The position numbers were made by a program, and so were the translations under genes. This document shows positions 3,185 to 27,666 of a stretch of 56,734 nucleotides of DNA, piece after piece. The notes beneath the pieces are model-generated. The model saw only the letters and a list, made by a program, of their open reading frames with translations. It did not search any database and was not told the origin of the DNA. The stretch lies in contig REEL01000112.1 in the NCBI GenBank assembly GCA_007695095.1, positions 1 to 56,734 of the forward strand, given 5' to 3'. This stretch comes from Chitinophagaceae bacterium (GTDB lineage Bacteria > Bacteroidota > Bacteroidia > Chitinophagales > REEL01). Each line of letters begins with the position of its first letter. Positions within the stretch are counted from its first letter, which is position 1.

Positions 3185-3194
3185 GTATTGAAAT

Positions 3195-7593: not shown

Positions 7594-7596
7594 TTT

Positions 7597-8937
7597 TTAT
7601 AGCTCTATTACATGTTTTTTAAAGTGTTCACCACGTTTTTTATAATTTTCAAACAAATCAAAACTCGCGCATGCCGGAGACAACAAAACGGCATCTCCAT
7701 TTGTAGAAATCGCAGCAGCCATTTCCACCGCCTCTCTCATATTATCTGTATTCATCATCACATCCACATGCTTTGAGAATGCATTGTGTAAGGGGACATT
7801 ATTAGCGCCCAAACAAATGATTGCTTTCACTTTTTTTCTGATTAATGGAATGATTGAAGCATAGTCATTGCCTTTGTCAACTCCTCCGGCTATCCAAACT
7901 GTCGGTTTATTCATTGATTCCAAAGCATACCAGGCGGAATTTACATTTGTAGCTTTTGAGTCATTAATATATTCCACACCCCCGATTCTTGCTACAAACT
8001 CCAGACGGTGTTCCAGTCCTTTAAAGTCCATAAAACTCTCCCGGATGACTTCTTTTCTGAGGTCAAGCACTCTGGCTGAAATTCCGGCAGCCATAGAGTT
8101 GTAAATGTTGTGTTTGCCTTTAATTTTTAAGTCTGTAAGTTCCATTTCGAAAGGGTTTTCTTCGGCAATTATTAATTTGTTGTTTCTGGTAAAGGCTGTG
8201 AGTTCTTTTTTTTCTTCCATACCAAACCAAAGCTTTCTGGTATTCAATTGCTTTTTGTTGATGTGTTCAAGCAGAACCTTATCATCAAAATTGAGGATTA
8301 GTGTATCTTCTTTATCCATTAGCCTAGCTATGCTAAGTTTAGACTGTATATAGTTTTCAAATTTATCCTGGTATCTGTCCAAATGGTCTTCGGTAATGTT
8401 TAAGATTATGCTGATTTTTGGTTTAAATGTTTTGCAATCGTCTAATTGAAAACTGCTGACTTCCAGTACATAGTAATCCGTATCTTCTTCAGCATTTATC
8501 ACCAGTTTAGAAAATGCATCCCCGAGATTTCCTCCCACAGAAACTTTTAAGGAAGCTTTATCCAAAATGTGTCCAATCAGCCTGGTCGTTGTTGATTTTC
8601 CGTTTGTTCCTGTGATAGCAATCACCGGTTTGTCTGTATATCTGAAGGCCCATTCTATTTCAGAAATCAACTCGATTTTTTGTTTTCTTATGGTTTGAAC
8701 TATTTTTGTTGATTCGGGTACTCCCGGACTTTTAATTATCAGTTCAGAATCACAAATTTTATCAAGACTGTGCTCTCCCTCTTCAAAATCAATTTTATAT
8801 TGGTTCAGTATAGCTTTGTACTCGGCCGTAATATTTTTGCTGTCTGAAACAAAAGCATTCCAGCCTTTGAGGCTTGCTAAAACTGCTGCCCAAACCCCGC
8901 TTTCACCTGCTCCTAAAATGGTACATCTTTTTTCCAT
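7597..8937 (-). CDS. murD: UDP-N-acetylmuramoylalanine-D-glutamate ligase MurD
   Basis: Cytoplasmic ATP-dependent ligase adding D-Glu to UDP-MurNAc-L-Ala. It has the N-terminal UDP-binding glycine motif GAGESGVWAA (9-18), the P-loop GTNGKSTT (110-117) and a central LNITEDHLDRY. The C-terminal domain contains GGVDKGNDY and LLSPACASFD, both typical of MurD. Length is 446 residues. It abuts mraY with no spacer. Confidence 0.97.
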   Translation of the reverse strand: MEKRCTILGAGESGVWAAVLASLKGWNAFVSDSKNITAEYKAILNQYKIDFEEGEHSLDKICDSELIIKSPGVPESTKIVQTIRKQKIELISEIEWAFRYTDKPVIAITGTNGKSTTTRLIGHILDKASLKVSVGGNLGDAFSKLVINAEEDTDYYVLEVSSFQLDDCKTFKPKISIILNITEDHLDRYQDKFENYIQSKLSIARLMDKEDTLILNFDDKVLLEHINKKQLNTRKLWFGMEEKKELTAFTRNNKLIIAEENPFEMELTDLKIKGKHNIYNSMAAGISARVLDLRKEVIRESFMDFKGLEHRLEFVARIGGVEYINDSKATNVNSAWYALESMNKPTVWIAGGVDKGNDYASIIPLIRKKVKAIICLGANNVPLHNAFSKHVDVMMNTDNMREAVEMAAAISTNGDAVLLSPACASFDLFENYKKRGEHFKKHVIEL

Positions 8938-10203
8938 TTACCTCAGTTTTAATGTTATAATAGTCATGACAGCCAATAGTAGCCCTATAATCCAGAATCT
9001 GCTGACAATCTTAGATTCATGCATTCCTTTCTTTTGAAAATGATGATGAATAGGTGCCATCAGAAAAAAGCGTTTTCCTTCTCCGTAAACCATACGGGTA
9101 TATTTGAAATAAAAGACCTGTATGATTACGCTTAAATTTTCTAACAGGAAAATGCCGCAGAGAATAGGTAGCAGTAATTCTTTTCTCATGATAATAGCAA
9201 GGGCAGCTATGATGCCTCCAATTGCCAGACTTCCTGTGTCGCCCATGAATACCTGTGCCGGATATGCATTATGCCATAAAAAGCCTATACAGGCTCCTAT
9301 AAAGGCAGCGGTGAAGATTACCAGCTCTCCCGTAAACGGGATATACATTATATTTAGATAGTTCGCAAAAATGATATTACCGGAAACGTAGGCAAAAACT
9401 CCCAGAGTCGCCCCTATGATTGCAGAGGTGCCGGTTGCCAGTCCGTCAAGTCCATCAGTCATATTAGCTCCGTTAGAAACAGCTGTAACAATGAATATGA
9501 CAACCGGAATAAAAATGAGAAATGCCCATTTTTCGTAACCCGGGCCCAGAAATTTAAGTGGGGCAGAATAGTCTATTTCATGATTTTTGAGGAATGGAAT
9601 AGTCGTTACCGGTTTTTTGACATCTACCATGGTATGCTGATCTCCCATGAAATCGCTGATGGTAATTACATCACCATTTTGAAGAATTTCATTGCTTTCT
9701 ACTTCCTCTATAGTGGCAATATTTACCCTGACGATAACATCCTCATGGAAGAATAAAACAGAACCGACAATTAAGCCCAAACTGATTTGCCCGAAAATTT
9801 TAAACTTTCCGGCTAAACCTTTTTTATTTTTTTTGAAAACTTTGATGTAGTCGTCGAGAAATCCGATTAAACCCATCCATACAGTTACCAGAAGCATTAG
9901 TAAGATGTAAATATTATCAAGTTTGGCAAAAAGTAAGGTAGGAATAATGATAGCTGCCAGGATGATGAGTCCGCCCATAGTGGGAGTTCCTTCTTTTTCT
10001 TTTTGACCTTTGAGACCTAAATCTCTCACTGATTCTCCAACCTGTTTTCTATGAAGAAAGGCAACCAAACGGCCTCCGAACACAAGCGTTATCAGTAAAG
10101 AGAAGATAATGGCCATACCTGCTCTGAATGAGATAAACTGAAATACCCCGGCTCCGGGTATTCCAAATTGTTCATCCAACATGTTAAACAGATAATATAA
10201 CAT
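8938..10203 (-). CDS. mraY: Phospho-N-acetylmuramoyl-pentapeptide transferase MraY
   Basis: Integral membrane enzyme that transfers phospho-MurNAc-pentapeptide to undecaprenyl phosphate, making lipid I. Visible motifs are GTPTMGG (72-78), FLDDYIK (115-121), [10 protein letters not shown] (247-256) and the C-terminal HHHFQKKG. Compared with the ~360-residue E. coli enzyme it has an extra soluble segment of about 70 residues (roughly 153-225) between membrane helices. This insertion is typical of Bacteroidota MraY, and its role is unclear. Its ATG overlaps the murE stop as TAATG. Confidence 0.97.
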
Positions 10204-11672
10204 TATGTATTTAAAATTTTTAGTTCGTGTATTAAAATCAGCTTATCATCAAATGGATGCTTTTCGCCATTTATTTCCTGATATTTTTCATGTCCTTTGC
10301 CGGCTACCAGTATAATATCCTGATCTTTTGAAAGTGAGCAAGCCAGTTGTATCGCTTCCTTTCGATCGGGAATACTTAGTGCTTTTTTTTCTAAAGCAGG
10401 ATGAAGGCCGGCTTTCATTTCTTTTATAATTGCCTGTGGATCTTCATTTCTGGGATTATCACTGGTTAGGATTACTCTGTCGCTCATTTCAGCAGCAATT
10501 CTGGCCATTAGCGGTCTTTTTTCTTTGTCTCTGTTGCCTCCGCAGCCAATGACTGTAATTACTTGCTGTTTTTGATTTTTCATATTGTTTATTGCCGCCA
10601 GAGTGTTTTTAAGTGCATCCGGTGTATGGGCAAAATCAACAATTCCGGTAATTCCGTTTTTACTAATTTTTATATAATCAAATCTTCCTTCAGGAGCTTT
10701 AAGGGCAGACAGCGGTTCAAAAATTTCTTCTTCCGGAATACCAAGCTCAATGGCTACAGCAAAAACCGTTAGTAGATTCCAGGCATTATGTTCACCTAAA
10801 AGTAGAGAGAAAACTTCCTTACTATTTATGTTTACCAGCATTCCCTCAAAGCTTTGCTCCAGTAGTTTGCCTTTGTAATCTGCCATGGTGTATAAACTGA
10901 AAGTTCTTTTTCTGGCTTTGGTGTTTTGGAGCATTACCGTGCCTCTTTTATCATCTACATTTACCAATGCAAAAGACATAGAACCGAGGCTATCAAAGAG
11001 TTTCTTTTTAGCCGTTATATAGTTTTGAAAATTCAGGTGATAGTCCAAATGATCATGAGAGATATTTGTGAAAACTGCACCGGTAAATTTTAAACCGGCT
11101 ATTCTTTTTTGTTCAATGGCATGTGAGCTTACTTCCATAAAAACATACTCACAACCATTTTCAACCATTTCATGGAAAAGTTTATTTAGTTGAAGTGTAT
11201 CAGGTGTAGTAAAGCTTGAAGGATAGGTTTTATTTGCAATTTTATATTCCACAGTAGAAATCAAACCTACTTTAAAGCCCAGCTTTGTAAATAATTGAAA
11301 AAGCAGACTTACAACTGTTGTTTTTCCGTTCGTGCCGGTAACACCTATGAGTTTTAGCTTGTTTGCGGGTTGCCCAAAGTAATTTGCTGCCATTATACCC
11401 ATAGCAGCTTGCACATCTGCTACTTTGATATAGGTGATGTTTTCCTTGTAATTTTTAACTTGATCAGAGTGTACAATAGCTCTGACATTTTTCTTTTCAG
11501 CTTCCGGTATGAAGTCGTGGCCATCTGATTTCAAGCCTTTAATTGCAAAAAAGACATCATTATCGGCCAGTTTGCGGGAATCAAATTCAAGGGCATTGAT
11601 TTCACAAGCTGTGTTGCCATATACTTCATCTAATGGCACCGTGTATAATATGTCTTTTAAAAACTTTTTCAT
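10203..11672 (-). CDS. murE: UDP-MurNAc-L-Ala-D-Glu:meso-diaminopimelate ligase MurE
   Basis: Cytoplasmic Mur ligase adding the third residue of the stem peptide. The P-loop GTNGKTT is at 113-119. The C-terminal DNPR motif (405-408, within DNPRNEDP) is the known signature for meso-diaminopimelate rather than lysine as substrate, so a DAP-type peptidoglycan is inferred. Length is 489 residues. Its ATG overlaps the ftsI stop by 4 bp (ATGA). murF, the usual next step, is absent from this cluster. Confidence 0.97.
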
Positions 11673-13765
11673 CCCAGTTCAATAGTAATTTGAGTCGAGT
11701 TATTTAACATTTGTCCGGGAGTTAGTGATTGCCTGATTACTCTCCCGCGACTTCCAATGATTTCTACTGTTAGACCCATATTTTCCAGTAAATAAATTGC
11801 ATCTTTCAGACCCATCCCTCTTACGTCAGGTATATTTTCTTTATTGACGGATAGATTAGACAGGTGTATTTTGTTATTGGTAATTCTGGAGGATATCCAT
11901 TCTGTATCAGAATAATCTTCATACAGTAATCCCAGATTTTTTAACAGAAAGCGAGCATCATAGGCACTTCCGGGTCGTAAAATTGGAACGGACACGGTCT
12001 CCTCCTGTACATATAGGTTTACCGGCAAATGCATTGGTATACTCATTGAGTAAACATGGTCTGCTATTTCTTTAAAAACGGGGCCGGCAACATGTCCGCC
12101 ATAGTAAATTCCGGATGTTGGTTTTTGAATTACTACTATACAGGAATACTCCGGATTGTCAGCCGGGAAATATCCAACAAATGATGATTGATATTTATCG
12201 CTATAAGTGCCTGCATCTGCTATTTGTGTGGTACCGGTTTTTCCGGCAATTTTATAAGAATCAGAACGGATAACCCTGCCGGTACCGTTTTCTACTACGC
12301 TCTCCAAAAGTAAACGGATATCTTCCAATGTTTTTTGTGAAGTGATAGAACTATTTAAAACTTCCGGTTCAAAGCTTTCTATTACATTTCCGTATTGTTG
12401 AATAGATTGAACCAGATATGGTTTCATCATTTTTCCGTTATTAGCAATGGCATTATAAAATGCTAAAATTTGAATAGGAGCCAGTTGTAATTCATAACCT
12501 ACAGCCATCCAGGGCAATGTTGTTCCGCTCCAGTCAGGATTTGACGGGTCCTTTATAAATGGTGTAGCTTCCCCTCTTATCTCTATTCCAACGGGCTTGT
12601 CCAAGTCCATTTTTTTCAGATGATTTATAAATTTGTGAGGCTGACTTCCGTAATGTTGTTGAATCAATCTTGAAATGCCTACATTGGAAGACATGTCAAA
12701 GGCTCTTTGTATGGTAACTCTTCTGTTATCATGTTGCTCGGCATCTCTCATTACCAAATCAAAAAAGTTATACCTGCCCCGGTTTAGGTCAACACTGTCA
12801 TTAATATGTATATACCCGTCTTCCAAAAGGGCAATCATCGCAGCGGTTTTGAATGTAGAACCCGGCTCGGTTCCTTCACCGATAGCATAATTGTATTTTT
12901 CCCAGTAGCGCCCTTTTTCAATTTCACCTAAGTTGGCAATTGCCTTTATTTGCCCTGTACTTACTTCCATTAGAACTGCTGTTCCGTGACTTGCTCCATG
13001 TGTTTTTATTGCTTTTAAAAGTGCATTTTCTACAACATCCTGAAGGTTTACATCTATGGTCGTAACTATATCTTTACCATGTTGAGGCTTGATTTCATCT
13101 TCGTCATTGATAGGAACCCATGTGCCTCCTGATATTCTTTGCATAAGTCTTTTGCCTTCAACACCGGATAAATATTCATCGAATGCGCCTTCTAAGCCAA
13201 CGGGTTGCACATCCGGTCTTACGTAACCAATAGTTCTGTGAGCGAGTAGGCGAAAAGGAGTTACCCTTCTGTTTTGCTGAATAACAATCATGCCTCCTCT
13301 GAACCGGCCTTTTCGGAATATGGGCCAGCTCCTCATTTCCATTAATTCGTGGTAATTGGCATTTTGCTTTATTAATAAATAGCGATTGCCGTTTAGTCTT
13401 GCATTTACCAGCCTTCTTTTATATTCAATTTCTGAAGCATCACCAAAAAAAGCAGACATATTAAATGCGAGACTGTCAACTTTTGAATAGAATAATTCAT
13501 CTGTAATGGATTCGGTGTTTGGGTCAAAACGAACTTCAAAAAAAGGCAAAGAAGTAGCTAATAAACGACCATCAGCAGATAAGACATTTCCTCTTTCCGC
13601 TTCAATAGAAATATAGGCTGTGGTTAAACTGTCTGCAAAAGATTTCCAGTACTCACCTTCAGATACCTGAATTTGAACAGCTTTTACAAAGACAGCTCCC
13701 CCAAGAAGGCATATAAATATAAATGCCACCCAGATTCGCCATAATATTTCTTTTTTAATATTCAT
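11669..13765 (-). CDS. ftsI: Septal transpeptidase FtsI (class B PBP) with C-terminal PASTA domain
   Basis: Penicillin-binding protein that cross-links septal peptidoglycan, working with FtsW. There is one N-terminal membrane anchor (about 10-30), then a dimerisation domain and the transpeptidase domain. The catalytic STFK is at 303-306, SSN at 359-361 and KTGT at 509-512. A single PASTA domain fills the last ~65 residues (beginning PDVRGMGLKDA). A PASTA tail is absent from E. coli FtsI but occurs in Bacteroidota and Gram-positive PBPs. The start overlaps the ftsL-like gene by 11 bp. Confidence 0.96.
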   Translation of the reverse strand: MNIKKEILWRIWVAFIFICLLGGAVFVKAVQIQVSEGEYWKSFADSLTTAYISIEAERGNVLSADGRLLATSLPFFEVRFDPNTESITDELFYSKVDSLAFNMSAFFGDASEIEYKRRLVNARLNGNRYLLIKQNANYHELMEMRSWPIFRKGRFRGGMIVIQQNRRVTPFRLLAHRTIGYVRPDVQPVGLEGAFDEYLSGVEGKRLMQRISGGTWVPINDEDEIKPQHGKDIVTTIDVNLQDVVENALLKAIKTHGASHGTAVLMEVSTGQIKAIANLGEIEKGRYWEKYNYAIGEGTEPGSTFKTAAMIALLEDGYIHINDSVDLNRGRYNFFDLVMRDAEQHDNRRVTIQRAFDMSSNVGISRLIQQHYGSQPHKFINHLKKMDLDKPVGIEIRGEATPFIKDPSNPDWSGTTLPWMAVGYELQLAPIQILAFYNAIANNGKMMKPYLVQSIQQYGNVIESFEPEVLNSSITSQKTLEDIRLLLESVVENGTGRVIRSDSYKIAGKTGTTQIADAGTYSDKYQSSFVGYFPADNPEYSCIVVIQKPTSGIYYGGHVAGPVFKEIADHVYSMSIPMHLPVNLYVQEETVSVPILRPGSAYDARFLLKNLGLLYEDYSDTEWISSRITNNKIHLSNLSVNKENIPDVRGMGLKDAIYLLENMGLTVEIIGSRGRVIRQSLTPGQMLNNSTQITIELG

Positions 13766-14090
13766 TTCCTCTTACAATAATTTTATAAGGTGGTGATTGA
13801 ATTTCTTTTAAACCATAAGGAGCAACTTCCTTAGCTACTTCTGTTTGCTTGCTTTTATACATTAGCTCAGCTTTTGTGGTCATATACTCCCACCTCAATT
13901 CTTTTAGTTTTGGTTGTAATGTGTTCAGGTGGCGCATTTTCTTTTCAGCCATGTGCGTATTTCCTATGTATACTATCGCAAGCAATGAACAGAACAGGAC
14001 AAAAGGTAAATTAAGCAATAGCTTGTCAGGCTGGAAAATTGATTTTCCATCCCATCTTTTTAGCCACGATTTAATGTTCATTTTTTCCAT
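13755..14090 (-). CDS. ftsL: FtsL-like septum protein
   Basis: Small bitopic protein of 111 residues. It has a basic N-terminus, one transmembrane helix (about 27-43, LPFVLFCSLLAIVYIG) and a helical periplasmic tail with heptad-like hydrophobic spacing, consistent with a coiled coil. Primary sequence of FtsL is poorly conserved, so the call rests on size, topology and its place between rsmH and ftsI. Translation could start at the first Met or at Met4. It probably stabilises the FtsW-FtsI complex. Confidence 0.8.
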   Translation of the reverse strand: MEKMNIKSWLKRWDGKSIFQPDKLLLNLPFVLFCSLLAIVYIGNTHMAEKKMRHLNTLQPKLKELRWEYMTTKAELMYKSKQTEVAKEVAPYGLKEIQSPPYKIIVRGNEY

Positions 14091-14093
14091 CTT

Positions 14094-15032
14094 CTACTCT
14101 TTTAATACAAATGCTGTTTTATCTAAATTTTGTGCAGTTCTCTCAGCTATTCTGAGTTTTGCACTTCTTGCTCTTTTATTTTCATTTGTTTCTTCTTCAG
14201 TTGCTGTAATAGGTTTTTTAGTTATTTCTTTAAATATTTTATAAGGATTACCATAAAGGTCTTTTGAAACTGTCCCTTCAAAATTGCCAGACTTTATAAA
14301 GTTTTTAACAAGCCGGTCTTCCAGGGAATGGTATGACATAACTACCAGTCTTCCATTTTCAGCTAACACCTCTGCTGATTGTTCTAGTAAATCTCTCAGA
14401 CTCCCCATTTCATCATTCACTTCAATTCTTAAGGCCTGATACACTTTTGCCAAATACTGCGAAGGTTTTTTTCCGGCATATTTAACTGTAAGCTCTCTGA
14501 AAGCCTTCCCTTCGGTGAGAGGAAAACCCTCTCTTGTATTTACTATACCTGATGTAAGTGCGCTTGCATTATTTATCTCACCATACAGTCTGAATATATT
14601 CTTCAGGTTAGCAAATGAGTAGCTGTTTAGTATATCAGCGGCACTATGAGGTAAGTCTTTTGACATTCGCATATCGAGCGTATCGTCATATCTGGTCGAA
14701 AAACCTCTTTCCGGGGTATCTATTTGATGAGAAGAAACACCTAAGTCAGCTAAAATTCCATCTACTTTTTTTATACCGTTCAGCCTTAAAAATCTTTTTA
14801 AATGCCTGAAGTTTTGTTGTATAAAAATGAACCGGGGGTCTTCAGGAATGTTTCTTAGAGCATCTTCATCCTGGTCAAAGCCAATAAGTTTTCCATTTTC
14901 ACCAAGGTTGTCTAAGATTGCTTTTGAATGACCGCCGCCACCAAAAGTTACATCTACATAAATACCATCTTCTTTTACAGCTAATCCCTCTATACATTTA
15001 TTTAAAAGAACGGGCCTGTGATAACTATTCAT
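14094..15032 (-). CDS. rsmH: 16S rRNA m4C1402 methyltransferase RsmH (MraW)
   Basis: SAM-dependent methyltransferase that modifies C1402 in the ribosomal P site. The N-terminal HRPVLL, the SAM-binding FGGGGHS and FDQD, and the later ADLGVSSHQ and MSYHSLEDR motifs are all present. I chose the ATG at 15032 (312 residues) because conserved homology begins at NSYHRPVLL. An in-frame ATG eight codons upstream lies deeper in mraZ. With this start the gene overlaps mraZ by 8 bp. Confidence 0.97.
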   Translation of the reverse strand: MNSYHRPVLLNKCIEGLAVKEDGIYVDVTFGGGGHSKAILDNLGENGKLIGFDQDEDALRNIPEDPRFIFIQQNFRHLKRFLRLNGIKKVDGILADLGVSSHQIDTPERGFSTRYDDTLDMRMSKDLPHSAADILNSYSFANLKNIFRLYGEINNASALTSGIVNTREGFPLTEGKAFRELTVKYAGKKPSQYLAKVYQALRIEVNDEMGSLRDLLEQSAEVLAENGRLVVMSYHSLEDRLVKNFIKSGNFEGTVSKDLYGNPYKIFKEITKKPITATEEETNENKRARSAKLRIAERTAQNLDKTAFVLKE

Positions 15033-15492
15033 CGTTATCCTCTTTTGACAGATCACCCATTACATCTTCTGCCAGGTCTGAAAAGTCTGCCGGTTCATCA
15101 TCCAGCAATCCTTCGTATTCTTCTTTGTTCCAAATCTCTATTCTGTTTGAGTAGGCAAATAGCACTACATCTTTTTTTAAGTTTGCATATTCCATTAGTG
15201 ATTTTGGAAAAAGTATTCTGTTGTTGGAATCCGGAGATAATTCTGTAGCTCCCCTGTAGAAATATCTTACAAATTGCCTGTTTTTCTTTACGTACAGGTT
15301 GAGTCTGTTAATTTCAGAACTTATTTTTTCCCACTCGTTAAAAGGATAAAGAACCAAATGTTTCTCAAAGCCACGATTTACAACAAACCGATCCCGGGCC
15401 TCCGGAAGCAACTGTTTGTTCAGTCCGGAGGGAATCATGAGACGCCCTTTGGCATCTACTTTGCATTCATATTCCCCAAGAAACCTGGTCAT
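15025..15492 (-). CDS. mraZ: Transcriptional regulator MraZ
   Basis: First gene of the dcw operon. It encodes a DNA-binding protein with two SpoVT/AbrB-like beta-barrel half-domains: GEYECKVDAKGRLMIPSGL near the N-terminus and a second around SPDSNNRILFPKSL. The acidic C-terminal tail ends in DNDE. In E. coli MraZ binds TGGGN repeats upstream of its own gene and represses the operon. The matching operator is present here 35 bp upstream of the start. Length of 155 residues is normal. Confidence 0.96.
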   Translation of the reverse strand: MTRFLGEYECKVDAKGRLMIPSGLNKQLLPEARDRFVVNRGFEKHLVLYPFNEWEKISSEINRLNLYVKKNRQFVRYFYRGATELSPDSNNRILFPKSLMEYANLKKDVVLFAYSNRIEIWNKEEYEGLLDDEPADFSDLAEDVMGDLSKEDNDE

Positions 15493-15956: not shown

Positions 15957-18900
15957 ATGATACGCATAACTATTTATGCGGTAATGTTACTTTTTTCTGT
16001 CTCAACTATAAGCTTACAAGCACAGGTAGTTGCAGATTTTACCGCAAACAAATCAGCGGCTTGTAGTCCGTTAGTCGTTCAGTTTACTGATAATTCTCAG
16101 GGGAATATTACCTCCTGGTTTTGGAATTTCGGAAACGGAAATACATCTACGCAACAGAATCCCGGTGCTATTTATATACAATCCGGGGATTATCATGTGA
16201 CGCTGATTGTATCAGATGGAAATGTGTCAGATACTATTGTTAAGACTGACTTTATTTCTGTTTATTATCCACCTCAGACTGAATTTACAGTTGATGCACT
16301 AAGTGGATGTGCTCCGATGACAGTTAATTTTCAGGATTTAAGTGTTGCAGGGTCATCAAATATTCAAAACTGGGCATGGAATTTTAGTGATGGTGGAGAT
16401 AGTTATAGTCAAAACCCAACACATACTTTTACGCAGCCCGGAACTTATGATGTGACATTAATGGTTTTTGATGCAAATGGTTGTCAGCATTCGGTAACAT
16501 ATACAGATTATATAACTGTAAATCCGGAGCCTGTAGCGGATTTTGTTTCTGATATAAATAATTCATGCATAGCTCCCCTGAGTGTTAATTTTACTAATTT
16601 ATCGACAGGTAACAATTTAACATATCATTGGGATTTTGGGAATGGGCAAACCACATCTGTGGAAACTCCTTCAATGACTTATAATCAACAAGGAAATTAT
16701 ACAGTAAATCTTACTGTAACTGATAGTGATGGTTGCATATCTTCAGTTTCAAAAAGTAATTTTATAAATATAGAAGAGTTTACCGCTGATTTTGAATCTG
16801 ATTTAACGAATGTTTGTATTGGTGAAACGGTTTCATTTACCAATTTAAGTAATTTGCCTGCCAATGACTTTATATGGGATTTTGGAAATGGTGAAACTTC
16901 CACCGCAGAAAACCCTCAAATCGTATATAATTTACCGGGAACCTATACAGTAAGCATGATAGCTACAACTCCGGGTGGATGTATAGATACTATTGTTTAT
17001 GCAAACTACATAGAAGTCAGCGCACCTCAGGCGATTAATATTTCGTTGTCAGATATTTTTAGTTGTCAAACTCCATTAACTGTAAACTTTACTTCAGATG
17101 CACCGGCTGGTTCTCAGTTAAACTGGGATTTTGGTGATGGAACAACCAGTAATGATCTTAACCCGGTACACACTTATACTCAATATGGAGAATTTGATGT
17201 ATCATTAGAAGTTACCAATCCAAACAATTGTAGTGTCTTAGTAAATTATGATACCCCGGTTGTAATTACTGCTCCGGTGGGAGATTTTGTAGCAGATACA
17301 ACTATGGGTTGTGTCCCGCTGGATGTTAACTTCACAAGTACTACAACTGCTGTGCCTGATATTACAAGCTGGGAATGGGATTTTGGGGATGGTAATACCT
17401 CAACAGATGAACATCCGGTACATACTTATGCTACTGAAGGTATTTTTCATGTAAGTTTAATTATTACAAATGATAATGGTTGCAGTGATACAATTGTAAA
17501 GAATAATTATGTGAGGGCAGGGAATCAGCCAACAGCAAATTTTGAGGCTACACCTCTAGTCTCTTGTATTAATTCACCAATTTCGTTTACGAATTTGTCA
17601 GACAGTGCAAATATTTATTTTTGGGGTTTTGGTGACGGTGGATTTTCGAATCTGATTGAACCAGTTTATACATATAGTGATACCGGATATTTCGATGTTA
17701 CCTTAATAGCCTTAAATAATGGATGTCCAGATACTTTGATTCTGGAGGATTATATTTACATTTATCCTCCATTAGCTGATTTTTCATACACACTGAATTG
17801 TTCAGACCCTTATACCGTAGTGTTTACGGATAATTCATTTGCTCCGGATAGCTGGAATTGGTCATTCGGTGACGGAAGTGTTTCAACAGATATAAGTCCG
17901 GTTCATACTTTTTTCAATACAGGTACATACACTATAACGTTAGAGACCGGACATAGCCCAAGCGGATGTATGGACCAAATAAGCTATAATATTACAATTG
18001 CTGAACCCATAGCTGATTTTCATGCTATAGAAACTGAAGGCTGTGCCCCTTTTAATTTTGATTTACAGGATGATTCTCAGGATGCAGTTTCCTGGCTTTG
18101 GTTAGTAGATGGAATGACATCAACTCAGCAAAACCCACAATTTACAATTTCTACACCCGGTTCGTATGATGTACGCCTTATAATAGAAGATATAAATGGT
18201 TGCAAGGACACTATTGTTAAAAATGAATATATAGTTGTAAATGGACCTGTTGCTGATTTTACAGCTACCCCAACTCAGGGTTGTGCTCCATTAGATGTTC
18301 AGTTTGAAGATAATTCTACTCCATATATGGGTAATATTACCCAATGGGGTTGGGATTTTGGAGACGGTAATACCGGTACAGGCCCATTCCCTTTGCATAC
18401 TTATCAAAATAGTGGCAGTTACACGGTTTCATTAACTGTTGTGGATGATAATGGTTGCAGTCATACAAGTACAAAAAATTATTTTATAGAGCCGACATTT
18501 CCGGAGCCTGATTTTACTTTTGATAATACTTCATGCACGGCTACACCAGTTTCATTTCAAAATACGTCAAATGGTACCGGCCTGAGTTATTTCTGGAATT
18601 TTGGAGACGGGAATACATCTACAGATACAAATCCGACACACCTTTACTCAGTTGAAGGAATATATTCTGTATCATTAACAGTTACAGATGTGAATGGATG
18701 TGACAGCACACTTACAATCCAAAATGCAATAAATATCAGCAATCCAATTGCATCTTTTACTGCCGACACCACCTTTTCACCTTGTCCGCCTCTTTTAGTT
18801 AATTTTGAGGATCAAAGTACCGGTGATATAGTTGCATGGAATTGGAACTTTGGGGATGGCAAAACTTCCAATCTGGAAAATCCGACTCATGTATATTTAA

Positions 18901-21662
18901 CACCCGGAAATTTTGATGTAACGCTTGTGGTAACAAGTATTCATGGATGTAAAGACACTATTCATGTTACTGACCATACTGTGGTTTTGGGACCTTATGG
19001 TACATTTGATTTCAACCCTCAGCAGGGATGTACCGATTTGGTAGTAGATTTTATTTCATCAACTACGAACACCGTAAGCTGGACTTGGGATTTTGGAGAT
19101 GGGACAGTGATTTATGATACTGATTCTGTAATTCAGCATACCTATCAGAGTGTTGGGAATTACAGCCCTGTTATGATACTTGACGATGGTTTAGGTTGCT
19201 TATTTTCAGTGGAAACTACTGATACGGTAAAAACCGGTAGTCTGACATCAGATTTTGCAGCAAGTACAGAATATTTATGTAAAGAAGGTGAGGTGCATTT
19301 TGGAAGTATAATACAATCTTCTCATTCTCAAATAGATTATTTGTGGGATTTTGGAGATGGAAATACTTCTACAGATGCAAATCCAATTAACTTCTACAGC
19401 ACTCCGGGAATTTATACCGTTAGTCTTATTGTAGACAATGGATTTTGCGCAGATACTATCATCAAACAAAATTTAATAGAGGTAGATCCGGGACCTAATG
19501 TATCATTTTCAGCATCTGATACTGTTTCCTGTGACCCTATGATGGTTCAGTTTACTGATTTAACAATATCAGCTTATGCTATTCAAAGCTGGGAGTGGGA
19601 TTTTGATAATGGTACTATTGATAGCATACCTAACCCTCAGGTTTTCTTTTCTGATACAGGTGTGTATACTGTTTCTTTGACAGTTACTTCTGAAACAGGC
19701 TGCAGCAATACAGAATTTATAGATATAATTATTCATAGTTTGCCGGTAGCATCTGCCGGTAATGATCAGCAAATATGCTTTGGAGATTCAATTGAGCTGA
19801 ACGGAAGCGGTGGAATAATTTATGAATGGTCTTCAACAGGTGGAATGTCTGATCCAAATATTCAGAATCCGGTAGCATTCCCTCAACAAAGTTCGACATA
19901 TAATTTAACGGTAACGGATCAAAACGGATGTCAAAGCTCAACTCATGTAAATGTGATAGTAATGCCATTGCCAACGATAACAGTTAGTCAGGATACTGCT
20001 GTTTGTTTGGGAGAAACTACTGAGTTGATGGTAAGCGGAGCTAATACCTATTTATGGACGCCTTCATCTTCTCTGGATTGTGAAAATTGTCAAAAAGTAA
20101 TTGCTTCTCCAACTTCTACTACTACTTATGTAGTTAAAGGCACAGATTTAAATGGCTGTCAAATGGAAGATTCAGTTACTGTAAACGTGAATCCGATTCC
20201 TGAAGGAATAGTAACAGATAACCAAACGATTTGTATAGGTGAAAGTGTTGAGATTGAAGTGGTTGGCGGAATAACTTATAACTGGCAAAATACAAACGGA
20301 TTGTCCTGCACTACTTGTCCTGATCCGATTGCACAGCCACAGGTTTCTACACAATATTTTCTGGAAACGATAAATGAATTTGGTTGCAGTAGTCTTACTG
20401 ACATTGCAATTGCCGTGAATCCTTTACCGGAGGCAAGCATAATAGCTGATACTGCTATTTGTTTTGGTGAATCAGTTGAATTAACAGTAAGTGGAGGAAC
20501 ATCTTATCAGTGGGATACAACAGTTAGCGGATTGAGTTGCTATGATTGTGAAAATCCTATGGTTACACCACAAGGCACTACTGATTATTATGTGGAGGTA
20601 TTCAACCAGTTCAATTGCAGTGTTCAAAAGGAAGTAAATGTAGTCGTAAATGATAATCCATTTGTTAATATTGAAAGTGGTGCAACTATTTGTGCAGGAG
20701 AAGTATTTGCTCCTACGGTTGACTTTTCTTCAGATATAACCTCATGGAACTGGAATCCGAATGATTACATGAGTGGAAACGGAATTGCAAATACTGAATT
20801 ATTCCCGGAGGTTCCGACACTATTTATAATAGAAGTTGAAAATGAAAATAATTGTACATCTTCAGATAGTGTTTTCGTTGATGTAATAAATAACATAGCC
20901 ACAAATTCAGTTAATTCGCATGCTGTATGTGAAAAAGATATAGTTGAGTTAGAGGTTACATTGCTACAATATTCAGATTTGTCTGAAGTGACTTTTACAT
21001 GGGTTGATGCAGATGGGCAAATAATTAGCAATAATGAGAGTCTTACGGTTTTAGCAGACTATGATAAAGAATATACATTAATTGTTGAAGGTGGAGCTTG
21101 CGTACCTGATACAGTTATGTATGAAGTAATTGCAAACCCGTTACCTTATGTAAGCGCTGGTGAAGACAGACATGTTGTTTCCGGAACTCAAATCACATTA
21201 GACGCTACTTCAGACTCAGAAAATGTAAGTATTGGCTGGTCTGACGGAGTTTTCTGGTCATGTGAGGATTGTAATGGAGAGTGGGTGACTGTTGATGTGC
21301 AAACTACTTATACCACAACGGCCGTAAATGAATTTGGATGTATATCTCAGGATAGCAAAACCATTAAAGTTATTGAAAATTGCGGAGCTGATATCTTCAT
21401 TCCAAATACGTTCACTCCTGATGGAAATGAAATAAATGATAAGTTATATGTGCGAAGTTTAGCTGTTGAAGAAATTAAATTCTTTAGAATTTATGACCGC
21501 TGGGGAAGACTTGTTTTCGAAACAAAAGATTTGAATCAGGGATGGGATGGTCGCTTCAATGGACAGATGATGAATACAGGAGTTTATGTTTTTCAGCTTG
21601 AAGCACTTTGTACAAATGGAATTATAATTCAAAAAGAAGGTAATGTTACCTTACTCAGGTAA
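15957..21662 (+). CDS. Giant secreted PKD-repeat protein with type B T9SS sorting domain
   Basis: Very large (1,901 residues) cell-surface or secreted protein. A signal peptide ends around residue 22 (…SLQAQ). About 15 PKD-like modules follow (roughly 25-1,262), each marked by a variant of WxWDFGDGxTS…NPxHxY and most with a Cys near the start and a Cys in an 'NGC' near the end, suggesting one disulfide per module. Next come several Ig-like repeats (about 1,267-1,640) with ICxGExxxL and many with CxxC pairs. The last ~90 residues, from IFIPNTFTPDGNEINDKL to the end, are a gliding-motility type C-terminal domain, the type B signal for type IX secretion. The function is probably adhesion or matrix, but no ligand can be inferred. 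It is monocistronic and followed by a strong terminator. Confidence 0.92.
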   Translation: MIRITIYAVMLLFSVSTISLQAQVVADFTANKSAACSPLVVQFTDNSQGNITSWFWNFGNGNTSTQQNPGAIYIQSGDYHVTLIVSDGNVSDTIVKTDFISVYYPPQTEFTVDALSGCAPMTVNFQDLSVAGSSNIQNWAWNFSDGGDSYSQNPTHTFTQPGTYDVTLMVFDANGCQHSVTYTDYITVNPEPVADFVSDINNSCIAPLSVNFTNLSTGNNLTYHWDFGNGQTTSVETPSMTYNQQGNYTVNLTVTDSDGCISSVSKSNFINIEEFTADFESDLTNVCIGETVSFTNLSNLPANDFIWDFGNGETSTAENPQIVYNLPGTYTVSMIATTPGGCIDTIVYANYIEVSAPQAINISLSDIFSCQTPLTVNFTSDAPAGSQLNWDFGDGTTSNDLNPVHTYTQYGEFDVSLEVTNPNNCSVLVNYDTPVVITAPVGDFVADTTMGCVPLDVNFTSTTTAVPDITSWEWDFGDGNTSTDEHPVHTYATEGIFHVSLIITNDNGCSDTIVKNNYVRAGNQPTANFEATPLVSCINSPISFTNLSDSANIYFWGFGDGGFSNLIEPVYTYSDTGYFDVTLIALNNGCPDTLILEDYIYIYPPLADFSYTLNCSDPYTVVFTDNSFAPDSWNWSFGDGSVSTDISPVHTFFNTGTYTITLETGHSPSGCMDQISYNITIAEPIADFHAIETEGCAPFNFDLQDDSQDAVSWLWLVDGMTSTQQNPQFTISTPGSYDVRLIIEDINGCKDTIVKNEYIVVNGPVADFTATPTQGCAPLDVQFEDNSTPYMGNITQWGWDFGDGNTGTGPFPLHTYQNSGSYTVSLTVVDDNGCSHTSTKNYFIEPTFPEPDFTFDNTSCTATPVSFQNTSNGTGLSYFWNFGDGNTSTDTNPTHLYSVEGIYSVSLTVTDVNGCDSTLTIQNAINISNPIASFTADTTFSPCPPLLVNFEDQSTGDIVAWNWNFGDGKTSNLENPTHVYLTPGNFDVTLVVTSIHGCKDTIHVTDHTVVLGPYGTFDFNPQQGCTDLVVDFISSTTNTVSWTWDFGDGTVIYDTDSVIQHTYQSVGNYSPVMILDDGLGCLFSVETTDTVKTGSLTSDFAASTEYLCKEGEVHFGSIIQSSHSQIDYLWDFGDGNTSTDANPINFYSTPGIYTVSLIVDNGFCADTIIKQNLIEVDPGPNVSFSASDTVSCDPMMVQFTDLTISAYAIQSWEWDFDNGTIDSIPNPQVFFSDTGVYTVSLTVTSETGCSNTEFIDIIIHSLPVASAGNDQQICFGDSIELNGSGGIIYEWSSTGGMSDPNIQNPVAFPQQSSTYNLTVTDQNGCQSSTHVNVIVMPLPTITVSQDTAVCLGETTELMVSGANTYLWTPSSSLDCENCQKVIASPTSTTTYVVKGTDLNGCQMEDSVTVNVNPIPEGIVTDNQTICIGESVEIEVVGGITYNWQNTNGLSCTTCPDPIAQPQVSTQYFLETINEFGCSSLTDIAIAVNPLPEASIIADTAICFGESVELTVSGGTSYQWDTTVSGLSCYDCENPMVTPQGTTDYYVEVFNQFNCSVQKEVNVVVNDNPFVNIESGATICAGEVFAPTVDFSSDITSWNWNPNDYMSGNGIANTELFPEVPTLFIIEVENENNCTSSDSVFVDVINNIATNSVNSHAVCEKDIVELEVTLLQYSDLSEVTFTWVDADGQIISNNESLTVLADYDKEYTLIVEGGACVPDTVMYEVIANPLPYVSAGEDRHVVSGTQITLDATSDSENVSIGWSDGVFWSCEDCNGEWVTVDVQTTYTTTAVNEFGCISQDSKTIKVIENCGADIFIPNTFTPDGNEINDKLYVRSLAVEEIKFFRIYDRWGRLVFETKDLNQGWDGRFNGQMMNTGVYVFQLEALCTNGIIIQKEGNVTLLR

Positions 21663-21705
21663 CTCAAGATACTATTTTGGTTGATAGTAGTTTTGGTTAA
21701 GTAAG

Positions 21706-21729
21706 GCAGGCTTGAAATTTCAAGCCTGC
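21706..21729 (+). terminator. Rho-independent terminator after the PKD-repeat gene
   Basis: GCAGGCTTGA and TCAAGCCTGC form a perfect 10-bp stem with an AATT loop, followed by TTTTCTTCTTTTT. It lies 44 bp after the stop codon. Confidence 0.9.
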
Positions 21730-21776
21730 TTTTCTTCTTTTTGAACTTTTTTTAAGCATATAAAGTTAAAGGTGTT

Positions 21777-22229
21777 ATGAAAATTGCCCAAAGCATATCT
21801 GTGTTGTTTTTGGCCTTTATGTTGATTTTTTCAACTACGGGTTTAGCAATTTATACGCATTATTGTAATGCAAAAAATACCGCTACTGCCAATTTATTTC
21901 AGGAAGCTAAATGTTGCGGTACCTCTCATAGTCAGCATAAAGCAATTAGTTGCTGTTCTGAATCCGAAACACATGACTCTACAGAAAATATAAGTAATCA
22001 ACAATGCTGCGAACACAATCTAAACTTCGTAAAAGTTGATTCAGAGTTTTTGATTACTAAAAAATCACATTTATCTTCAGATGATATGCCGATTAAATTC
22101 GGTTTTGTTTTAAATATTCTTTCCGAGAACAAGCATTCAGAGAAAAATATTTCTACCACTTACCATGGACCTCTGCTATACGTCAACAGCAGGGATATTT
22201 TACAATTAACTTCAGTTCTGCTTATTTGA
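21777..22229 (+). CDS. Cys/His-rich HYC_CC_PP-type small secreted protein
   Basis: 150-residue protein with an N-terminal signal peptide or anchor (about 1-25). A likely metal-binding region follows: HYC (28-30), then CC pairs at 46-47, 59-60 and 77-78, with several His between them (for example HSQH, 51-54). This matches the Bacteroidota HYC_CC_PP family as I remember it, whose members sit next to TonB receptor and HMA genes. Here exactly those two genes follow. A role in periplasmic metal binding, probably copper, is inferred from residues and neighbours and is not proven. The 144 bp after it contain no clear promoter or terminator. Confidence 0.75.
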   Translation: MKIAQSISVLFLAFMLIFSTTGLAIYTHYCNAKNTATANLFQEAKCCGTSHSQHKAISCCSESETHDSTENISNQQCCEHNLNFVKVDSEFLITKKSHLSSDDMPIKFGFVLNILSENKHSEKNISTTYHGPLLYVNSRDILQLTSVLLI

Positions 22230-22373
22230 TAAAGTATTTATAAGTTAAAGTACTGTGTAGTAATCTTTTTTATGTAAAGGAAAACACTACAGGTAATTAA
22301 GCTATTTAAATGCATTTTATTAAATTTAATATTTTGATACGCTAGATAAGCGTGTTAATCATAAAAACAGAAA

Positions 22374-24608
22374 ATGAAGACGTATAAATATTTATTAATT
22401 TTTTTAGCAACCATTGTAACCCTGGAGGTGAGTAGTCAGCAGATTACGGGTAATATAAAAGTGGTTGATGCCGGAGAGCAGTCCCCGGCAACCGGTGCAA
22501 ATATTTTTTTACCGGATTTAAGCAGAGGAACAGCAGCTGATGATGAGGGTAATTTTAAATTAGAGTTACCAAAAACCTCTGTTCCCGAATTTTTTATCGT
22601 AAGTTTTATCGGTTTTGAAAACGATACTTTTGCATTGGAAAAAGATAAATTTTACGAGATTTTATTGGATAAATCTACTTCCATTGCTGAGGTTACCGTC
22701 AGAACGAGCACTCCACCTACTTTTACGGCAGTATACAGACCAATTAACAGAGTAACAATCAGCGAAAGGGAGTTGCAAAAAGCAGCTTGTTGCAATTTGG
22801 CTGAAAGTTTTGAGACCAATCCAACAGTAGATATCAGCTACAGTGATGCAGTTTCTGGAGCACGCAAAATTCAAATGTTAGGTTTGGATGGGAAGTATGT
22901 TCAGATTGGTTTTGAAAATATTCCTATAGGAGACGGGCTTAACTATACTTATGGTTTAACACATATACCCGGTCCCTGGTTGGATAATATTCACATTACC
23001 AAAGGGGCGGGCTCGGTTTATCATGGATTTAATGCCATGACCGGTCAGATTATGCTGGATTTTAAAAGACCTGAGCGAGTAGAAGACCCTTTATACTTTA
23101 ATGCGTATGTAGATCATTCCAGCAGAACAGAAGCGAATGTCTTGCTACACCGTAACTTTGGACATAAATGGTCCGGTTTGGTTTTGTTTCATGGAAATTA
23201 CAATTTTCTGAGAATGGACATGAATGGAAACAACTTCATGGATATGCCTTTAAACAGACAGCTTAATATAATGAATCGCTGGACTTATGATTCACATGAC
23301 AGGATTTTATGGCAATTTGGTGTTTCCGGTGTAATTGAAGACAGACAGGGTGGAGAGATGGACTTTAGAAAAGATGAACATCTTGGAACAGATGAATATT
23401 ATGGTATTGTAATCGATCACCAAAAATATAGTGCATTTTCCAAATTGGCTTATTTATTTCCGGAGAAACCTTATAAAAGCATAGGCTGGATTGCCCGGGC
23501 AAATTATTTGAAGCAGAATTCGGTTTTTGGATTAAAAGAGCATAATGGTGAGCAGATAAGTCTGTATCAAAATTTAGTCTATCAAAGTATAATTTCCAAT
23601 ACAAATCATGTTATACGTACCGGAACATCTTTACAGGCTGACTTTTATAATGAGAGTTATGCGGACAGATTGAATGAAAATGAGTTTGAATATGATAACT
23701 CGTATATTATTCCGGGCGTATTTGCAGAGTATACCTATACTTTTTTAGATCAGTTTAGTTTGGTGGCAGGCTTGAGAGCTGATTATTTTGAGCAGCAAGG
23801 AATAAAACCGACTCCAAGGATTCATTTAAGATATCAGCCATTAGAAAGAACAACTATCAGGTTATCAGCAGGTACTGGTTGGAGAATCCCATATTTTATT
23901 CCTGAAAATTTAAACTTTATGGCTACCTCTAAAATAATTGAACTTCCGGGAGTGTTGAGACCTGAAGAAAGCAGAAATTATGGTATCAGCCTTCATCAAT
24001 CGTTTAATATGTTGGAAAGACCGGCCTATTTTTCTGTAGATTTCTACAGGACTGATTTTGACTTCAGATGGTTGACAAACTGGGATGAAGATCCTGACAA
24101 ACTAGTTTTTACGCCACTTGAAAATGCTTCATATGCGAATAGTTTTCAGGCTGAGCTTTTCTTTGAACCAATTGAAAATCTGGAGTTGAAGATAGCCTAC
24201 AAATGGGATGATGTAAAAGTAAAGTTGGATGATAGCTATGTAGCAGAAACTTTTGTTCCTAAGCATCAGGGGCTTTTTAATCTTTCTTATAGTACTGCAT
24301 TTGATCGCTGGCAGTTTGATTTCACTACAAAACTCAATGGCTCTATGAGATTACCTGATTGGGATGAAGAATCAGATGTTGCTGCCTACCAAAACTATTC
24401 ACCGGTATTTACTACCTTTAATTCTCAGATTACCCATCGCTTGAGAAAGTTAGATATTTATGTTGGAGCAGAAAATATAGGTAATTTTAAGCAAAAAGAT
24501 CCGGTTATTGGATATGAAGAGCCTTTTGGTAAGGATTTTGATGCTACACAAGTGTGGGGTCCTGTATTCGGAGCAAAAATTTATGCGGGTATTCGCTTAA
24601 CACTTTAA
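22374..24608 (+). CDS. TonB-dependent receptor, probable metal (copper) uptake
   Basis: Outer-membrane active transporter of 744 residues. A signal peptide (about 1-22) is followed by a carboxypeptidase-regulatory-like beta-sandwich (about 23-100), then a plug domain from about 120 and a C-terminal 22-stranded barrel. The plug begins with an unusual Cys-Cys (139-140, in KAACCNLAESFETNP), and RKIQMLGLDG follows. This cysteine-containing plug occurs in a receptor subfamily I associate with metal modules. Flanking genes encode a Cys/His-rich protein and an HMA protein 14 bp downstream, so metal uptake is the best guess. The substrate is not determined by sequence. Confidence 0.85.
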   Translation: MKTYKYLLIFLATIVTLEVSSQQITGNIKVVDAGEQSPATGANIFLPDLSRGTAADDEGNFKLELPKTSVPEFFIVSFIGFENDTFALEKDKFYEILLDKSTSIAEVTVRTSTPPTFTAVYRPINRVTISERELQKAACCNLAESFETNPTVDISYSDAVSGARKIQMLGLDGKYVQIGFENIPIGDGLNYTYGLTHIPGPWLDNIHITKGAGSVYHGFNAMTGQIMLDFKRPERVEDPLYFNAYVDHSSRTEANVLLHRNFGHKWSGLVLFHGNYNFLRMDMNGNNFMDMPLNRQLNIMNRWTYDSHDRILWQFGVSGVIEDRQGGEMDFRKDEHLGTDEYYGIVIDHQKYSAFSKLAYLFPEKPYKSIGWIARANYLKQNSVFGLKEHNGEQISLYQNLVYQSIISNTNHVIRTGTSLQADFYNESYADRLNENEFEYDNSYIIPGVFAEYTYTFLDQFSLVAGLRADYFEQQGIKPTPRIHLRYQPLERTTIRLSAGTGWRIPYFIPENLNFMATSKIIELPGVLRPEESRNYGISLHQSFNMLERPAYFSVDFYRTDFDFRWLTNWDEDPDKLVFTPLENASYANSFQAELFFEPIENLELKIAYKWDDVKVKLDDSYVAETFVPKHQGLFNLSYSTAFDRWQFDFTTKLNGSMRLPDWDEESDVAAYQNYSPVFTTFNSQITHRLRKLDIYVGAENIGNFKQKDPVIGYEEPFGKDFDATQVWGPVFGAKIYAGIRLTL

Positions 24609-24622
24609 AATTAAAAAAAATT

Positions 24623-24976
24623 ATGAAAAAATTATTAAAATATTCGGCTTTTACATTATTTTTTATTATTATGTACTCTACAAGTTTACAAGCGCAGAGA
24701 AATGTTGCAGAAGTAGATATAAAGAGTTCTGTATTATGCAAAACTTGTGAAAAAATTATATTAGAAGCATTGGCTTTTGAACGGGGAGTTCGTTCAGCAG
24801 AAGTTGATATTGAAAATAAAATTATTACTGTACGTTATAATGAACGCAGAACAGATATTGATCAGATTAGAGAAGCCATTTCTAAAGTCGGTTATGATGC
24901 CGACCATGTAAAGGCTGATGCTGAGGCATATAAAAATTTACCTTTTTGTTGCAAAATAGAAAGTGGTGTACACTAA
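24623..24976 (+). CDS. Secreted heavy-metal-associated (HMA) domain protein
   Basis: 117-residue periplasmic protein. A signal peptide ends near residue 25 (SLQAQ), and the rest is one ferredoxin-like HMA fold. The metal site CxxC is C39-K-T-C42, lacking the usual GMT lead. A second Cys pair, C109-C110, is near the C-terminus. The pattern 'ISKVGYDAD' is typical of HMA domains. It is likely a metallochaperone that accepts or delivers the ion handled by the receptor just upstream (14-bp gap, same operon). I chose the ATG at 24623 because it begins the signal peptide. An upstream in-frame ATG lies inside the receptor gene. Confidence 0.85.
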   Translation: MKKLLKYSAFTLFFIIMYSTSLQAQRNVAEVDIKSSVLCKTCEKIILEALAFERGVRSAEVDIENKIITVRYNERRTDIDQIREAISKVGYDADHVKADAEAYKNLPFCCKIESGVH

Positions 24977-25110: not shown

Positions 25111-27666
25111 ATGGAAGCAAAATTTTCACCAAAGGTTAAAGAAGTAATAACCTATAGCAGGGAGGAAGCACTCAGGCTTGGTCATGACTATATTGGCATT
25201 GAGCACCTGGTGTTGGGATTAATCAGGGAAGGAGAATGCTTAGCAATAAGGATTCTGAAAAATCTTGATAAAGACTTGGTTAAACTTAGAAGAGATATAG
25301 AAAATGCAATAAACGGTAAGATATCAAAATCTGTTTATAACGCCAGCAGTTTGCCACTAACAAAGCAAGCTGAAAAAGTATTGAAAATTACGGTGCTGGA
25401 AGCAAAAGTTATGAAAAGTGAGTTGATTGGAACCGAACATTTGTTTTTATCTATTTTAAAAAATAAGGATAACGTAGCGGTACAAATTATGGATAATCAA
25501 AGTATTGGCTACGATGAATTCAAGGAGGAGTTAGATTTTCTGAAAGATGACTTTACGGATAGCATGTCTAATGATCCGCCGGATGACGATCCTTTTGATG
25601 AAGAATCAAAATCCAGAAAGCCTGGTGGGTTTGGAAGTAGTGAGCCACGTAAAGGTGGTGCTAAGTCCCGGACTCCGGTTTTAGATAATTTTGGCAGAGA
25701 TGTTACCAAGTTGGCAGAAGATGACAATTTAGATCCTATTGTTGGACGGGAGACTGAAATAGAAAGAGTTTCTCAGATATTGAGTAGAAGAAAAAAGAAT
25801 AATCCAATATTAATTGGTGAGCCGGGTGTTGGTAAAACGGCAATTGTCGAAGGCCTTGCACTAAGAATAGTTCAGAGAAAGGTTTCAAGAGTACTTTTTG
25901 ATAAGCGAATTGTTATGCTCGATTTAGCTGCATTAGTAGCCGGAACGAAATACAGAGGACAGTTTGAAGAGCGCATGAAAGCTATCATGAATGAGTTGGA
26001 GAAAAACAAGGATGTAATTCTTTTTATAGATGAGATTCATACGATAGTAGGTGCAGGTGGAGCTACCGGTTCACTGGATGCTTCTAATATTTTCAAACCG
26101 GCTTTGGCCCGTGGAGATTTACAATGCATAGGAGCTTCAACCTTGGATGAATATCGTCAATACATAGAAAAAGATGGTGCTTTAGATCGTAGATTCCAAA
26201 AGGTTATTGTAGATCCGCCTTCTCCGGAAGAAACGGAACATATACTTACCAATATTCAAAATAAGTATGAAGATTATCATAATGTAACTTACTCTCCGGA
26301 ATCGATTAAAAATTGTGTTTCATTGAGTAACCGCTACATTACCGATCGATTTTTACCGGATAAGGCTATTGATGTTATGGATGAAGCGGGTGCCAGAGTG
26401 CATCTAAAAAATATTCACGTTCCCAAGAATATTGTAGAATTGGAAGCAAAGATTGAGGACGTGAAAGTGGAAAAAACAAAAGTGGTAAAAAGTCAGCGCT
26501 ATGAAGAAGCGGCAGAACTAAGAGATAAGGAGAAAAAACTGCTTGAAGAGCTCACCAATGCTAAGAAAGAATGGGAAGAAGAGGCTAAGACTAAGAAGTA
26601 TCCGGTAAGTGAAGAAGATATTGCAGAAGTAATTGCAATGATGACAGGTATACCTGTTAAGCGTGTGGCTCAAAGTGAAAGTGCGAAGTTGTTGCACATG
26701 AAAGATGATTTGAAAGCTGAAGTCATCGGACAGGATGACGCTATTCAGAAAGTTACTAAAGCTATACAGCGTAACAGAGTTGGATTAAAAGATCCAAAAA
26801 AACCTATCGGTAGCTTTATTTTTCTCGGACCAACCGGTGTTGGGAAAACAGAGTTAGCCAGAGCATTATCCAGATATTTATTTGATTCAGAAGATTCTCT
26901 TATCAGAATTGATATGAGTGAGTATATGGAGAAATTTTCAATTTCAAGATTAATTGGAGCTCCTCCGGGATATGTTGGTTATGAAGAAGGCGGACAATTA
27001 ACGGAAAAAGTTCGTAGAAAACCTTACTCAGTAATATTATTGGATGAAATTGAAAAAGCACACCCGGATGTTTACAATATCTTATTGCAAGTATTGGACG
27101 ATGGTATGCTTACAGACGGGTTAGGTAGAAAAGTAGATTTCAAAAATACCTTGATAATTATGACTTCAAATATTGGAGTAAGACAACTTAAGGATTTTGG
27201 AACCGGTGTTGGATTTACAACATCTGCTCAGGTTACCAGTACAGAAGATGTTTCAAGAGGTATTATTGAAAAAGCCCTGAAACGGACTTTTGCACCGGAA
27301 TTTTTAAATAGAATTGATGATGTAGTAATCTTTAATTCACTAGATGAAGGACACATTTTGCAAGTTATAGATATCGTTCTTAAAGATGTTTATAAGAGAA
27401 TTGAGTCTATCGGCTACAAATTGAAAATTTCTGATGAAGCTAAAAAGTTTTTAGTTAGAAAAGGTTATGATCCGCAGTATGGCGCCAGACCTTTACATAG
27501 AGCAATTCAAAAATACCTGGAAGATCCTTTGGCAGAAGAAATTTTACATGCCAAAATAAAAGAAGGACATGTTTTTCATATAGAGTATGATAAAAAACAG
27601 GAAAGTCTTATCATTTCTGCCAAGGCTACGAGAAAGAAAACTCAAAAACCTTCGGATAGTAAGTAA
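25111..27666 (+). CDS. clpC: ATP-dependent Clp protease ATPase ClpC
   Basis: AAA+ unfoldase that feeds proteins to ClpP. The Clp_R double repeat is at about 4-145, followed by an acidic linker. The first AAA+ domain has Walker A GEPGVGKT at 236-243. A UVR-type coiled coil lies around 445-490, and the second AAA+ domain has Walker A GPTGVGKT at 573-580. The C-terminal D2-small domain ends in a basic tail. The N-domain plus UVR motif distinguishes it from ClpA and ClpB. Length is 851 residues. It is followed by a strong terminator. Confidence 0.97.

Follow-up and report, generated by a model that had tools for sequence, protein, structure and literature searches.

The closest described counterparts of the locus analysed here are copper operons headed by a gene for an exported leader protein. 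In Rhodobacter capsulatus, CutF is the leader of cutFOG; it senses copper during its own export and controls a masked start (PMC9973294). CutF is a small exported protein with metal-binding cysteines and a C-terminal proline motif, it is encoded by the first gene of its operon, and a stem-loop in a short spacer masks the start of the next gene (PMC9973294). Such proteins are widespread ahead of copper genes, and CutF-like proteins have been reported in Bacteroidota, with TonB-like neighbours too (PMC9973294). In Bordetella pertussis, CruR is the leader of bfrG/crtA and heads a three-gene copper TonB-receptor operon; this leader ORF, which has a C-terminal PP as well as cysteines that sense copper, stands before the TonB-dependent receptor (PMC9426467, PMC12914433).

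The window studied here (the whole stretch of DNA that was analysed, 56,734 nucleotides of contig REEL01000112.1, assembly GCA_007695095.1, from a Chitinophagaceae bacterium of the Bacteroidota) contains three adjacent cysteine-rich genes that resemble these systems in outline. They encode a small protein of the HYC_CC_PP family, a TonB-dependent receptor with a cysteine pair in its plug (CC-plug receptor) and an exported HMA protein. The HYC layout of signal peptide, invariant cysteines and C-terminal PP is that of CutF and CruR, and the HYC protein is best read as a leader. The families are nevertheless distinct: CutF and CruR belong to DUF2946 (PF11162), which none of 37 HYC proteins matches at E 0.1, and the length and PP filter of the CutF paper (PMC9973294) passes only 8 of 106 HYC proteins, so the CutF-like and HYC sets overlap at best partly. 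The CutF helix masks the Shine-Dalgarno sequence, whereas in the HYC helix described below 1-11 nt separate the helix end from the start, and the 5' strand and the leader stop overlap. CruR also differs in carrying CXXC and RAPP and in acting through Rho-dependent termination across a 162-bp spacer, and the third gene of its operon encodes a PepSY_TM protein where the trio has HMA (PMC9426467, PMC12914433). The initial annotation of the window knew of no characterised example; this holds for the trio itself, which is described in no paper found by our literature search, and the literature searched contained no Bacteroidota system of such kind, but for the leader there are characterised analogues in CutF and CruR.

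Our preferred reading, to which we give a probability of about 0.58, is that the trio is a copper-handling operon in which HYC acts in cis as a leader controlling the receptor, a transporter, and the HMA protein, a periplasmic carrier.

Gene layout and recurrence of the trio

All three genes were found where the initial annotation had placed them, with the HYC motif, CC pairs, plug CC, CxxC and terminal CC that it had listed and with the 14-bp gap it gave between the receptor and HMA genes.

21703-21732, plus strand: terminator-like hairpin, 13 pairs with a T-rich tail, between the PKD-repeat gene and the HYC gene
21777-22229, plus strand: HYC_CC_PP family gene, 150 aa, proposed exported leader protein
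22374-24608, plus strand: TonB-dependent receptor gene, 744 aa, with CarbopepD_reg_2, plug and barrel
22788-22793, plus strand: codons of plug Cys139-Cys140
24623-24976, plus strand: exported HMA protein gene, 117 aa, with CxxC and terminal CC, proposed periplasmic copper carrier
24737-24748, plus strand: codons of the HMA CxxC (residues 39-42)
24947-24952, plus strand: codons of the HMA terminal CC (residues 109-110)

The hairpin is the strongest of six terminator-like sites in the region, where 1.7 are expected, and it closes the upstream gene, so HYC is probably the first gene of its transcription unit. The product of that upstream gene (15957-21662) is secreted and 1901 aa long; it contains 15 PKD_4 domains along with a CHU_C type IX secretion signal. 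On the other side, 134 bp past the HMA gene, a ClpC-like AAA protein is encoded on the same strand (25111-27666), and a minus-strand cluster at 278-15492 includes genes identified as FtsA, a Mur ligase and a PASTA-domain penicillin-binding protein.

A first search of 40 relatives and the genome itself (41 genomes), in which the CC motif was not used, found the receptor in 32 genomes. Eighty further loci came from named genomes, with two search patterns, one of which contains CC. HYC genes occur in 74 of 81 receptor loci and HMA genes likewise in 74 of 81, nearly always directly beside the receptor, and no third gene family recurs as often around these loci. Three layouts are seen: HYC-receptor-HMA, as in the window; HYC-HMA-receptor; and HYC followed by an HMA-receptor fusion. 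The trio thus recurs across Bacteroidota, as the initial annotation had required of its proposal, and the three cysteine-rich genes are a true operon that occurs throughout it. A small regulator with an HMA-like N terminus and an AraC-type end is also encoded beside the trio and beside Cus operons (L042, L044, L046, L047, L055, L057, L060, L068).

The receptor, the HMA protein and their copper context

The window receptor matches the Pfam Plug (PF07715) and barrel (PF00593) models above cut-off, and CarbopepD_reg_2 was also matched. Its Cys139-Cys140 pair, whose conservation was another point on which the earlier proposal hung, is invariant in all 31 alignable homologues found without the CC motif and is missing from seven more distant TonB receptors; its invariance in the 80 genome loci is not independent evidence, since CC was part of the search pattern. 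The receptor family also has His273 (99 of 101) and an almost invariant, calcium-site-like DxNxDxFxDxP stretch at residues 282-292. The copper receptors OprC/NosA and CrtA share the fold class of the window receptor but differ from it in detail. Against TIGR01778 (TonB-copper receptor OprC/NosA) the window receptor scores 20.4 bits, far below the cut-off of 472, and in place of OprC/NosA features it has the plug CC, His273 and the DxNxDxFxDxP loop; the OprC-type CxxxM-HxM site was not found among its conserved residues, and the barrel has no conserved Met or Cys. CrtA has an essential histidine, and a plug CC is not reported for it (PMC9426467, PMC12914433).

The cysteine pair may possibly be a metal gate, as the initial annotation suggested from the sequence. 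The window plug, modelled from 18 sequences, has pLDDT values of only 25-50 around the plug; this model is unreliable, so no geometry is claimed for Cys139/140. In a deeper model of a fused relative, the plug reaches a pLDDT of about 61-85 around the cysteines, and the CC lies just ahead of the first plug helix. The genome to which the window belongs encodes a second CC-plug receptor (G000:C118:144395-146593; L002, L038), which is 31% identical and of a CCDLxGCF subtype also present in L031 and L033.

The window HMA protein matches PF00403 with 44.9 bits and carries CKTC at residues 39-42 and FCCK with the CC at 109-110. In a set of 20 HMA proteins of the family, every member keeps the CxxC and over 90% keep the terminal CC; among solved structures, those closest to the domain come mostly from copper chaperones and from the domains of copper ATPases. 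At least 12 loci (12 flagged) encode a receptor with HMA fused onto its N terminus, with one more case among the relatives (L028), and three HMA matches of 852-854 aa (L073, L074, L076) are probably fusions also. The model of the fused relative, a Segetibacter protein, shows a confident N-terminal HMA fold (pLDDT 92-96) followed by the receptor. Because the two are fused into a single protein in at least 12 loci, HMA and receptor share one function, and this part of the envelope relay proposed in the initial annotation stands. The N terminus of TonB receptors faces the periplasm, so the fused HMA domain is placed where the plug could pass metal to it. The receptor and HMA protein look like an outer-membrane copper transporter and a periplasmic copper carrier, and Cys139/140 may be the hand-over site between them.

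The cargo could instead be another soft metal or a metal chelate such as a siderophore, with Cys139-140 forming a structural disulphide, which we regard as somewhat unlikely. Structure searches with the receptor returned receptors for cobalamin, siderophores, zinc and copper to a similar extent and singled out no cargo, its best sequence matches are not copper receptors, and the second CC-plug receptor of the genome has no HYC or HMA gene adjoining. Against this account, the HMA and HYC neighbours and the Cus context indicate copper or silver, and in the fusions a soft-metal site lies where the receptor opens to the periplasm. Every one of the 40 sampled genomes with the receptor carries a COX1-family (heme-copper-type) oxidase gene, yet so do 62 that lack the receptor (p 0.046), and since heme-copper oxidases occur in 102 of the 109 genomes sampled, this correlation says almost nothing.

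The copper link made in the initial annotation is backed by genomic context, in that CusA-type efflux operons, like copper P-type ATPases, are headed or joined by genes of the HYC and HMA families. Outside the trio, most HYC genes open CusA-type efflux operons that include CPMHP-type adaptors, often together with an HMA protein and an HMA-AraC regulator, and in five loci the trio has copper-type (CPC) P-ATPases nearby. Copper is thus assigned by association, through the neighbouring HMA, HYC and Cus genes, and silver or another soft metal may possibly take its place. In the genome studied here, the CusA-type operon (G000:C96:2678-11747; L182) has no HYC gene ahead of it, and its P-type ATPase is split over two frames.

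The occurrence of one leader family ahead of CusA-type efflux operons, like the copper ATPases near five trio loci, would also suit a receptor that serves the copper-excess response by capturing or removing copper complexes, with copper turning on both kinds of HYC operon. This is unlikely, given that TonB receptors are known as importers (PMC12914433) and that the CruR-led receptor operon of Bordetella is shut off by copper (PMC9426467). If the receptor of the trio imports scarce copper, the sign of the response would differ between the two kinds of operon, as one leader family stands before a presumed importer and before efflux pumps.

HYC genes and the helix from stop to start

The window HYC protein scores 45.1 bits against NCBIfam NF047658 (HYC_CC_PP; cut-off 28) and is a member of this family, as are 35 of 36 relatives; the NCBIfam entry gives a family name and assigns no function. 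It contains H28-Y29-C30, three CC pairs and an N terminus judged hydrophobic by eye. Family members (n=106) have a hydrophobic leader and four cysteines conserved at 99-100%, and C30, C47 and C77-C78 of the window protein fall in these (nearly) invariant columns. PP is found in 88 of the 106, mostly 15-17 residues before the C-terminal end; the window protein has P132-L-L where the family has PPP, and only P132 of the PP is kept. The codons of the PP are some 48 nt ahead of the stop and are not part of the paired strand of the helix, so its conservation is not a by-product of that helix.

The position of HYC is far more constant than its company. A same-strand gene follows in 102 of 105 HYC genes with a neighbour (background 72%, p 5e-11), at gaps of 30-150 nt in 88% (background 34%), and this gene may encode a CC-receptor, an HMA protein, an HMA-receptor fusion or a CusA-type pump. 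HYC genes collected independently, with nothing but the HYC model, gave the same picture: all 30 are followed by a same-strand gene at a gap of 35-138, with eight CC-receptors and otherwise mostly CusA-type pumps as next genes. A constant place before changing partners predicts a cis-acting element, and the RNA between the HYC stop and the next start has the corresponding features, which in the window are as follows.

22210-22220, plus strand: helix 5' strand, CUUCA and UUCUG, 10-20 nt before the end of the HYC stop codon
22230-22373, plus strand: structured spacer between HYC and receptor
22368-22379, plus strand: helix 3' strand, CAGAA and UGAAG, covering the receptor start codon

The segment 22200-22400 folds at -41.3 kcal/mol (z -3.56), and none of 200 shuffles is as stable. 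The 150 nt around and after HYC stops have a mean z of -2.68, compared with -0.85 after receptors and -1.18 after other genes. The duplex between the HYC end and the next start reaches -12.7 kcal/mol, compared with -8.3 kcal/mol in 411 control gene pairs (p 1e-17), and HYC ends generally pair better with their own partner than with those of other loci (median rank 0.075 vs 0.52), which is covariation in a simple form; in the independent HYC set the median rank is 0.069. Pairing peaks at -17 to +14 of the stop for the 5' strand and at -24 to +3 of the start for the 3' strand. Helices of at least 9 bp occur in 72% of cases, compared with 20% of controls and 37% when partners are swapped, and the top 60 comprise 57 different helices. 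Eleven Flavobacterium-type loci share a 13-pair helix in which 89% of cells are paired, falling to at most 50% when the strands are slid; five of its pairs have changed on both sides, and its covariation score is reached by none of 500 shuffles.

In the window, the receptor start region is paired with the HYC end at a mean probability of 0.58, and its own partner is in the best 2.5%. The window helix is shorter, with two 5-bp blocks and no long uninterrupted helix standing out; a narrow pairing window misses it and a wider one detects it. Pairing is also weaker where the HMA gene comes next. Rfam gave no match at its thresholds, and a consensus alignment of Winogradskyella-type spacers, which mixes loci with different next genes, yielded no structure. 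Of the hallmarks of a CutF-like leader, the export signal (with the N terminus judged by eye), the conserved cysteines and the start-masking spacer structure are thus present, the last of them more weakly in the window. HYC probably serves as a leader that senses copper, its end pairing with the start of the gene behind it.

That all three proteins act in the envelope, with HYC as a periplasmic copper carrier or sensor working in trans, is quite unlikely. It would fit an exported protein with four conserved cysteines that is conserved together with HMA and receptor, but a protein acting in trans need not always directly precede the next gene, whichever gene that is, nor does it need a stop region that pairs with the next start. 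The fixed place of HYC and the stop-to-start pairing point to a cis-acting leader, and the earlier idea of HYC as one protein of a three-protein envelope relay is not supported in that form. Plain translational coupling, common in operons, in which the helix ties receptor synthesis to HYC translation with no metal sensing, would by the helix alone account for the gene order but is improbable, since the helix is not seen in the 411 control gene pairs of the same loci, the cysteines are encoded at a distance from the helix and the PP is outside its paired strand, so that both are conserved at the protein level, and HYC genes outside the trio mostly lead metal-efflux operons.

A proposed leader mechanism and its implications

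In a copper-sensing leader operon, HYC would be translated as a leader whose product enters the export pathway while still being synthesized, with its cysteines sensing copper, and where the ribosome stands at the HYC 3' end would set whether the following gene has its start hidden by the helix. While a ribosome is held at the HYC stop, the 5' strand (about -17 to +14) would be occupied and the next initiation region left free; once the ribosome leaves, the helix would close. Copper bound to the nascent exported chain may lengthen or shorten the stay of the ribosome. The TonB-dependent receptor would then carry copper, or a complex containing it, through the outer membrane, and the HMA protein, fused to the receptor in some families, would pick up the metal where the plug faces the periplasm. 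We give about even odds to the wider proposal that, Bacteroidota-wide, one family of exported cysteine-rich leaders sets, through a stop-to-start helix, the synthesis of two copper systems with opposite tasks, namely CC-plug receptors that pass copper on to an HMA carrier (in some cases fused to them) and CusA-type efflux pumps.

New here are the proposed Bacteroidota-wide leader with its stop-to-start helix, the CC-plug receptor family and its fusion to HMA. Knowledge of how copper passes the outer membrane is limited to few bacteria, and the operon supplies a candidate receptor with an invariant cysteine pair together with a matched periplasmic carrier, the two being fused in some species. 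If HYC is indeed a leader, it would extend metal sensing by nascent exported proteins beyond DUF2946.
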